A stretch of 41,179 nucleotides of DNA from Alphaproteobacteria bacterium (GTDB lineage Bacteria; Pseudomonadota; Alphaproteobacteria; Micropepsales; Micropepsaceae): NCBI GenBank assembly GCA_947473475.1, contig CANJBZ010000034.1, positions 1 through 41,179 on the forward strand. Direction: 5' to 3'. The translations under genes were made by a program, and so were the position numbers. Below the pieces are notes generated by a model that did no database searches, was not told where the DNA came from, and saw only the letters and a list, made by a program, of their open reading frames with translations. Every line of letters starts with the position of its first letter. Positions within the stretch are counted from its first letter, which is position 1. Positions 18,837-21,302 of this stretch are shown here, in pieces.

Positions 18837-18863
18837 TGATGGTTTATTGATGTATATATGATG
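18837..18863 (+). promoter_or_regulatory. Three TGATG iterons at 11-bp spacing
   Basis: TGATG occurs at 18837-18841, 18848-18852 and 18859-18863, each exactly 11 bp apart and so on one face of the helix. The run ends 28 bases before the ATG of the His-rich membrane protein and overlaps the only AT-rich stretch that could hold its promoter. Ribbon-helix-helix proteins commonly bind short direct repeats one helical turn apart, and an RHH gene is the second gene of this operon. Autoregulation is therefore a reasonable inference. Confidence 0.45.
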
Positions 18864-18891
18864 TTCGTGGTTTCAGCCTAAGGAGGTTGTC

Positions 18892-19293
18892 ATGGCCAAG
18901 TTTGGCATCGGCGTTGGCGAGGAATTTCCGGTGAATGAACCGCCTGCCCGCAATGCTTCGGAAAGCGACGCGGATTACGCGGAGCGCCGCCGTTACTGGC
19001 GGCATCATCATTATCTTCACTTGGCGATGCGGCTTGCCGTCATCGCGCTGATTGTCTCTTTCATCGTCTGGATGTTCATCCCGCATCCTCCGATGCCGAT
19101 GCCCGGCGGAATGCATGGGCCTTACGGTTTCCACCACCATTTCTTCTTTCCGTTCCCGCTGTTGCTGATCGTGCTGTTCGTGCTGGCGTGGCGGGGCTTC
19201 GGCCGCCGCCATTGGCATCATCATCACCACCGGCAGGGCGGGCCGCCCGGGCGCGACGATCCGCGCTCTTGGCGCGACCGCGAGGAGGCGTAA
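18892..19293 (+). CDS. Histidine-rich two-helix membrane protein
   Basis: I do not recognise a family. The 133-residue protein has two membrane segments (about 44-63 and 84-100) separated by a Pro/Met/His-rich loop (PHPPMPMPGGMHG, GFHHHF). It has His clusters before the first helix (HHHYLH, 38-43) and after the second (HWHHHHH, 107-113). Fifteen of 133 residues are histidine, and several methionines sit in the loop. That pattern suggests binding of transition metals such as nickel, copper or zinc at the membrane. A strong AAGGAGG precedes the ATG. It is followed without a gap by a small RHH protein that also starts with a His cluster. Confidence 0.7.
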   Translation: MAKFGIGVGEEFPVNEPPARNASESDADYAERRRYWRHHHYLHLAMRLAVIALIVSFIVWMFIPHPPMPMPGGMHGPYGFHHHFFFPFPLLLIVLFVLAWRGFGRRHWHHHHHRQGGPPGRDDPRSWRDREEA

Positions 19294-19563
19294 ATGCACG
19301 GACGTCATCATCACCGCTCCGGCTGTGCGCCAGAGATGGCGAGCACCGAACGCTCGACCACGCGCGTTCAACTCGAAATGCCGCCGCAAGCGATGGAGCG
19401 ATTGCAGCGCCTGAAGGAAAGGACGGAAGCGGCCTCCTATGCGGAAGTCATCCGCAATGCGTTGCGTGTTCTGGAGGCGTTGGTCGACGAGCACGAAAAA
19501 GGCTCGGAATTCGCGCTTAAACGCCCAGACGGCGAAACCATCGCGTACAAAATTTTCGTCTGA
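19294..19563 (+). CDS. Ribbon-helix-helix (CopG-like) protein with His-rich N-terminus
   Basis: The 89-residue protein has an RHH fold: a strand (STTRVQLEMP, about 21-30), helix 1 (QAMERLQRLKERTEA) and helix 2 (SYAEVIRNALRVLEALVDEH). It begins with MHGRHHHRSGC, a possible metal-binding tag upstream of the DNA-binding strand. It starts directly after the TAA of the His-rich membrane gene and uses the GAGGAGG that overlaps that gene's end; an internal Met15 is the alternative start. No toxin gene is adjacent, so an antitoxin role is unlikely. A metal-responsive repressor of its own operon is more plausible. It lacks the C-terminal ACT-like domain of NikR. Confidence 0.75.
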   Translation: MHGRHHHRSGCAPEMASTERSTTRVQLEMPPQAMERLQRLKERTEAASYAEVIRNALRVLEALVDEHEKGSEFALKRPDGETIAYKIFV

Positions 19564-19575
19564 CGGCGGTGCTTC

Positions 19576-20268
19576 ATGGAGTGCGTGGCCGCGCCGTCTC
19601 CCAATTTCGATGACCGTCCGCCCAATACGCCGGTCGACATCCTCCTGATGCATTACACGGGGATGGAGACCGGCGCGGCGGCGGTCGCGCGGCTCACTGA
19701 TCCAGCCGCCCGTGTCAGCTCGCATTACACGGTCGATGAAGACGGCACGATTTACGCGCATGTGCCCGAAGACAAGCGCGCGTGGCATGCGGGCGTGTCC
19801 TATTGGGCCGGCGCGCGCGACATCAACGCGCGATCGATCGGCATCGAGATCGTCAATCCCGGCCACGAATTCGGCTATCGCTCGTTTCCCGATGCGCAGA
19901 TCGCGGCGGTGATTGCGCTGTCGCTCGATATTCTCTCGCGGCATGCCGTGCCGCCGGAACGTGTGCTCGGTCATTCCGATGTGGCGCCTGCCCGCAAGAC
20001 GGACCCCGGCGAGTTCTTTCCCTGGCGTGCTTTGGCGCTGGCGGGGATCGGACTGTGGCCCGAGGGCCGCGAACGCCATCTGGATGTTCCGTTCACGGAT
20101 GGTCTGCGTGCCTTTGGGTATGGGCTGGCCCCCGACATGGAGGTGACGGACGCTACCGTCATCGAAGCATTCCAGCGCCATTGGCGTCCGTCGCGCATAG
20201 ACGGCGTTGCCGACGGGGAATGCGAAGCGATTCTGGCCGCGCTGCTTAAAGCGATGGATTTCTCCTAA
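19576..20268 (+). CDS. N-acetylmuramoyl-L-alanine amidase, AmpD/AmiD-like
   Basis: This is a zinc amidase of the Amidase_2 family that cleaves the bond between N-acetylmuramic acid and the stem peptide, a step in peptidoglycan recycling. The 230-residue protein has zinc ligands His26 (LLMHYTG), His133 (VLGHSDVAP) and Asp143 (KTDPG), with Glu91 and Lys141 near the active site. Residues from about 160 to 228 form a PG_binding_1-like helical domain (LRAFGYGL ... VIEAFQRHWRP). No signal peptide is visible, which favours cytoplasmic AmpD-type recycling of anhydromuropeptides. The two-domain layout resembles AmiD. It starts 12 bp after the RHH gene. Confidence 0.9.
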   Translation: MECVAAPSPNFDDRPPNTPVDILLMHYTGMETGAAAVARLTDPAARVSSHYTVDEDGTIYAHVPEDKRAWHAGVSYWAGARDINARSIGIEIVNPGHEFGYRSFPDAQIAAVIALSLDILSRHAVPPERVLGHSDVAPARKTDPGEFFPWRALALAGIGLWPEGRERHLDVPFTDGLRAFGYGLAPDMEVTDATVIEAFQRHWRPSRIDGVADGECEAILAALLKAMDFS

Positions 20269-20823: not shown

Positions 20824-20855
20824 ATTTATTTTCCGGATGTCTGGGGGCACACGTG

Positions 20856-21302
20856 ATGGATAGCGATTTTGAGAAGGAATACCTTTCGCAACGCGTAGCA
20901 CAGTTTCAATCTTCAGATGGTGCGATATCTATGAATGCGGACCAGTGGTGGACCAGCATTCCCGTTTCGCCTGGGGTTTACGTAGTCTACGAAGACGGAA
21001 AAGTCATTTACTGCGGCGAGACGGCAAGTCTCAGGGCGCGCATGAAGGACTTGAGGGATACGAGAAATCATACCCTCCGCCGCAGCGTTGCCCGCCACAG
21101 ATTGACGAAGTCTGAGGGATTTGCCGAGGCGAATCAAAGCCGAAAATTTCCTCTGCACATCGAACTGATTTTAAATGAGCACATGTCGAAGTTGATGGTT
21201 AAGGCTGTTCCGATAAGCCTTGGTCGCAAAGAAATTGAGCATGAACTCATTAAGCTTCACGATCCGATTTACAATAGAGTTTCTCGTCGGGGCGGCCTTT
21301 AA
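20856..21302 (+). CDS. GIY-YIG nuclease-like protein
   Basis: The 148-residue protein carries a GIY-YIG-type core: GVYVVYEDGKVIYCGET (GVY and IYCG for the two signature strands), a following arginine in SLRARMKDL, the conserved Glu in EIEHELI and an Asn in PIYNRV. The fold supports endonuclease activity, but no partner domain is present. Its base composition is clearly richer in A and T than its neighbours, which suggests recent transfer. It starts 33 bases after rnpB. The ATG at 20856 or the GTG at 20853 could be used. The stop overlaps the convergent gene in TTAA. It might be a stand-alone mobile nuclease or a restriction-type defence relic. Confidence 0.7.
   Translation: MDSDFEKEYLSQRVAQFQSSDGAISMNADQWWTSIPVSPGVYVVYEDGKVIYCGETASLRARMKDLRDTRNHTLRRSVARHRLTKSEGFAEANQSRKFPLHIELILNEHMSKLMVKAVPISLGRKEIEHELIKLHDPIYNRVSRRGGL

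Follow-up and report, generated by a model that had tools for sequence, protein, structure and literature searches.

The two genes described here, one for a small membrane protein and the other, directly following, for an RHH protein, form a variant, so far undescribed, of the autoregulated RHH operons. The comparison of homologous loci indicates that the RHH protein is most likely a dedicated autorepressor of its own operon, which it would control via an array of TGATG half-sites in front of the first gene. Our preferred reading, to which we assign an even chance, is an autorepressed bicistron with feedback from its membrane protein to the RHH repressor.

Organization of the locus

The features of the locus within the window, that is the whole 41,179-nucleotide stretch of DNA that was analysed, are compiled in Table 1. 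The initial annotation had reported three TGATG boxes 11 bp apart ahead of a two-gene unit. The spacing is indeed exact (starts at 18837, 18848 and 18859), the ORFs of the membrane protein and the RHH protein abut without a gap, TAA being followed by ATG, and the pair is kept in relatives. Its description of a two-helix membrane protein with fifteen histidines and of an RHH protein starting with MHGRHHHR likewise stands, as we count 15 histidines and hydrophobic segments at about residues 40-68 and 80-105 in the former, and as the latter matches Pfam RHH_1 (PF01402) with 24.3 bits as compared to a cut-off of 20.5.

Table 1. Coordinates of the features of the gene pair and its surroundings in the window
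Feature	Position	Strand	Remarks
Operator array, three TGATG half-sites with an 11-bp period	18837..18863	+	29-55 bp 5' of the start codon
AAGGAGG, likely ribosome-binding site of the membrane protein gene	18881..18887	+	Judged from the sequence
Small two-helix membrane protein, 133 aa, 15 His	18892..19293	+	N-terminal motif MAKFGIGVGEEFPVNE conserved
Codons of the conserved N-terminal motif	18892..18939	+	Sole near-invariant part of the membrane protein
RHH protein, 89 aa	19294..19563	+	His/Arg tail; ribbon TTRVQLEM, residues 22-29; predicted helices 31-44 and 49-68; predicted C-terminal β-hairpin 73-85
Amidase_2 (AmpD-like) gene	19576..20268	+	12 bp 3' of the RHH gene; outside the constant unit

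With its ribbon and two helices and its Pfam match above the cut-off the second protein belongs to the RHH (MetJ/Arc/CopG) superfamily. Its structure is predicted with a pLDDT of 83.5 to comprise the two helices and the C-terminal β-hairpin listed in Table 1, and this model most closely resembles the RHH domains of NikR and ParD; a PDB sequence search with the RHH profile gave no real match. In the family alignment 38 columns are invariant and the core, including R24 and Q26 of the ribbon, is nearly so. Judged from named records, the genome of the window falls into Micropepsaceae, the family that includes Rhizomicrobium. The gene is present in 50 of 96 genomes of this bacterial family, in 4 of 385 genomes of the class (members of the family counted in) and, when a broader profile was used, in 3 of 398 genomes of the proteobacterial phylum. 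A scan of named genomes detected it also in Parvibaculum-type genomes and turned up remote relatives in Acetobacteraceae, Qipengyuania, Massilia/Telluria, Methylobacter and an Isosphaeraceae bin. By these sequence comparisons the RHH protein is a distinct and very conserved family that is rare outside its bacterial family.

In the window the amidase gene is probably co-transcribed with the RHH gene, mraZ and rsmH lie a few kb 3' of the gene pair, and a small GIY-YIG-like ORF just under the Pfam cut-off (20853-21302) is located between the amidase gene and mraZ. In 21 of 80 loci an amidase gene lies immediately 3' of the RHH gene. It is no fixed third member of the unit, as in Rhodopila loci this place is taken by a gene that resembles miaA (by eye, from its start) and as other loci differ again. 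A gene for a siderophore-interacting FAD-binding protein is located between the RHH and amidase genes at L050:4219-4965, where it was assigned by Pfam (SIP/FAD_binding_9), and in L045, L049, L052 and L057, where it was assigned by sequence similarity.

The operator array

The triple TGATG pattern occurs once in the 41-kb window, both strands considered, and in none of 100 dinucleotide shuffles; nor did it arise when the 73-bp intergenic stretch was shuffled 200,000 times. Among 54 homologous loci, 50 contain TGAT-N7-TGAT at most 200 bp 5' of the membrane protein gene (shuffled mean 0.7, maximum 4), and TGAT repeats at a spacing of 11 were observed 91 times as compared to 0.6 expected. The shuffles and this conservation across loci rule out a chance array, and the boxes are thus conserved where the gene pair is, which the initial annotation had proposed as a check. 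The consensus of the operator is TGATGAT-N4-TGATGAT, with the aligned sites giving tTGATGATwTTtTGATGAT. A TTGAC box resembling a -35 element is typically found 8-10 bp 5' of the array in homologous loci; in the window itself a sigma-70 scan detected no promoter. Locus L037 lacks a clear array. Of the loci without TGAT-N7-TGAT, L038 and L067, read by eye, carry the array on the other strand, as TCATC repeated every 11 bp, with the gene orientation being the same.

The operator is not only conserved at but also restricted to the promoter of the gene pair. The exact 18-mer TGATGATN4TGATGAT is present in 24 copies in the 96 genomes of the family, all of them directly 5' of the gene pair: 22 immediately precede the RHH locus, and the remaining two lie at contig ends and run directly into the start of the membrane protein gene. 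The reversed control pattern has one match in the same 96 genomes, and a looser operator pattern has four scattered matches in the genome of the window. Since exact sites occur at no other place in the 96 genomes, a regulon-wide operator is ruled out and the array would be a dedicated autoregulatory site. Being conserved with and specific to the two-gene unit, it makes autoregulation, as assumed in the initial annotation, very likely. The term 'iteron' used there is nevertheless wrong, as the array is a promoter-proximal operator and not a replication origin; iterons of the plasmid replication type are ruled out by the chromosomal nature of the contig, with mraZ/rsmH nearby, and by the repeats being tied to the promoter of the RHH operon alone.

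The membrane protein and its pairing with the RHH protein

Searches of Pfam, NCBIfam, PHROGs and PADLOC gave no significant match to the membrane protein. Its constant part is the N-terminus, MxKxxVGVGEDFPxD, which nearly always conforms to M(S/A/T)KxxVGVG(E/D)xFPxD in loci of Micropepsaceae and of the Parvibaculum type. Past this motif the protein varies widely in sequence, composition and length (63-214 aa) and usually contains one or two hydrophobic segments; the partners in L046, L055 and L065 lack a clear membrane segment. Its middle and end, which are variable, basic and in many cases rich in His, are lineage-specific. As most of the protein is not conserved, its sequence found no match when used as query against genome contigs. 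The 96 genomes of the family were searched with an 18-residue profile of the N-terminal motif. Clear matches were obtained in 50 genomes, in 49 of which the motif adjoins the RHH gene; in the other one (G039) the gene is cut by the contig end just past the motif start. The motif is thus present in 49 of the 50 genomes with the RHH gene as opposed to 1 of the 46 others (Fisher p = 4e-25), and the conservation of the gene pair in relatives, another check put forward in the initial annotation, is borne out.

The sole RHH genome without the motif, G019, encodes a Cys/His-rich, soluble-looking partner under the same TGATGAT operator (locus L078). This partner (L078:3611-3910, sequence QCGCGEHGNKEHKAGECDG...CGCGHRH) has no Pfam or NCBIfam match, and the tail of the RHH protein at this locus contains CGC too. 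The motif is therefore not strictly required.

Remote relatives

The pair is retained in the remote relatives, from Acetobacteraceae and other groups, where the gene 5' of the RHH gene again encodes a small membrane protein. These membrane proteins mostly carry an N-terminal motif of the (I/V)Gx(D/E)F type, examples being MAYEPKIGKDFPIE and FRPRIGREFEL. The operator of this group is an inverted repeat, TGAG-N9-CTCA, in 13 of 24 loci, and no other gap lengths were seen. Loci with TGAG-N9-CTCA upstream of the membrane protein gene lie among L088-L110 and include L148, whose contig is classed as viral and contains the pair. The switch from direct to inverted repeats provides a natural case in which the architecture of the operator changes while the ribbon residues R24 and Q26 stay constant.

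A remote relative of the RHH protein is also encoded on the Klebsiella pneumoniae plasmid p72_5 (3 kb, ColRNAI; L154:1-563), 3' of a small ORF whose product has a hydrophobic C-terminus and lacks the N-terminal motif. This is possibly a mobile version of the gene pair. For the phage matches and a Paraburkholderia plasmid match to the RHH protein no clear gene pair was found.

Discussion

How would such a unit work? RHH dimers would occupy the TGATGAT half-sites, phased at 11 bp, next to one another along the same face of the DNA and over the promoter, much as RelB, whose RHH dimers bind repeated subsites on one DNA face with the spacing being essential (PMC2812701). The dimers so bound would shut off their own operon. 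Repression of the operon by RHH binding to the array is strongly supported by the comparison of loci; that it is brought about by promoter occlusion we infer. Held in the membrane by hydrophobic helices, the membrane protein would offer its constant N-terminal peptide x[VI]xVG[ED]xFP, which is presumed to be cytoplasmic, to the RHH protein, and the peptide would loosen or tether the repressor. Expression would then follow the state of the membrane or envelope, or just how much membrane protein is free. That the motif controls the RHH protein is suggested by the strict co-occurrence of the two and by the motif being the sole conserved part of the membrane protein. When the two ORFs, which share a frame, were joined in silico across the TAA and modelled with AlphaFold, the motif was not placed: residues 1-13 are modelled as unstructured, with a mean pLDDT of 36 for residues 1-10.

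If the N-terminal peptide controls the RHH repressor, the unit would represent a minimal way for a membrane protein to regulate its own transcription. With some reserve we extend this to an undescribed and widespread class, in which a small membrane protein would use a short, conserved peptide in the cytoplasm to capture the RHH repressor, the product of the following gene. The membrane would in this way directly control transcription of the pair and of its downstream envelope genes, with the operator switched between lineages from direct (TGATGAT, 11 bp) to inverted (TGAG-N9-CTCA). This wider proposal is tentative, and we hold it for somewhat doubtful. Operator, regulator and partner are in any case tied together by the comparative evidence well enough for a test in a few experiments.

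All the operator evidence fits equally well with plain negative feedback, in which the RHH protein acts as repressor of the operon while the membrane protein has an unrelated job in the envelope and makes no contact with the repressor; that the downstream gene is often an amidase gene, hence a cell-wall gene (21 loci), would suit such a job. However, the motif is conserved and accompanies the RHH protein across families, whereas the remainder of the membrane protein can change freely, and this suggests that the RHH protein is the partner of the motif. We therefore consider plain feedback unlikely as compared to a membrane protein that acts on the repressor.

RHH-autoregulated bicistrons are typical of toxin-antitoxin systems, and the unit might be such a module, with the free membrane protein being toxic and the RHH protein serving as antitoxin and autorepressor. 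Its distribution is patchy, with 3 of 398 genomes in the proteobacterial phylum and 50 of 96 genomes of the family, and there are the RHH relatives next to the small ORF on the Klebsiella ColRNAI plasmid and, together with the pair, in the predicted viral contig L148. Yet it occurs as a single chromosomal copy per genome and is rarely mobile, the amidase neighbourhood recurs, the order of the genes is reversed, and PADLOC reports no defence system. Moreover, the partners of known RHH antitoxins, as listed in PMC2701414, are soluble (RelE, PIN, MazF, GNAT or DUF497), and searches of Pfam, NCBIfam, PHROG and PADLOC place the membrane protein in no known toxin family. A toxin-antitoxin role thus seems improbable to us.

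Equally improbable in our view is a metal-sensing module, in which the His-rich segments of both proteins would bind nickel, copper, zinc or cobalt and the metal would control DNA binding. The 15 histidines of the membrane protein and the MHGRHHHR start of the RHH protein in the window had led the initial annotation to this idea, and it draws further on the His/Arg-rich N-terminal tails of the RHH protein in 27 of 39 Micropepsaceae loci, on the siderophore-interacting protein gene downstream in some loci and on the resemblance of the RHH fold to the DNA-binding domain of NikR. The putative metal ligands, however, are not conserved across homologues. The His content of the membrane protein ranges from 0 to 19% (median 6%, 46 homologues), the Met/His loop HPPMPMPGGMHGPYGFHHH is missing from two homologues of the same genus that retain the motif and both hydrophobic helices, in the outer groups the RHH protein has a His tail at just 2 of 17 and 1 of 24 loci, and the His contents of the two proteins correlate weakly (rho 0.29, p 0.054). 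Nor does the RHH protein, with its 89 residues, possess the C-terminal metal-binding domain of NikR. On the variable His content, the absent loop, the outer-group tails and the weak correlation, a conserved metal function of the pair is unlikely; a lineage-specific one is possible, for which the Cys/His-rich substitute partner under the same operator at L078 is the best hint.

What, then, are the closest described systems? In agreement with the initial annotation, which could assign the unit to none, the searches of Pfam, NCBIfam, PHROG and PADLOC yielded no such system and a literature search found no paper describing this gene pair. The closest profile to the RHH protein is PHROG 8557 (E 5.7e-9), a phage family of unknown function, whereas the close RHH homologues here are chromosomal. 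CdrS, the haloarchaeal RHH regulator of ftsZ2, is likewise a small RHH protein, and the pair in the window also lies near cell-division genes; but the match is weak (NCBIfam NF058555, 15.9 bits versus a cut-off of 100) and does not make the protein a member, the gene partner is another one, and the dcw neighbourhood is not constant in relatives. The modelled RHH domain superposes on that of NikR (Z 5.7, rmsd 1.4 over 48 residues), yet the structural matches cover just the first ~56 residues of NikR: its ACT-like C-terminal domain is replaced by a short β-hairpin after the RHH helices, and the operator is different. Finally, with the RHH autorepressors of bicistrons, RelB of RelBE, ParD of ParDE, CopG and Arc, the unit shares the RHH domain, the autoregulation and the repeated half-sites about one helical turn apart over the operon's own promoter. 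Different from these systems, the partner here is encoded by the first gene and is no soluble toxin but a small membrane protein whose N-terminal peptide is conserved, the RHH protein is predicted to end in a β-hairpin in place of a disordered toxin-binding tail, and the operator consists of TGATGAT direct repeats, which in the remote relatives give way to inverted TGAG/CTCA.
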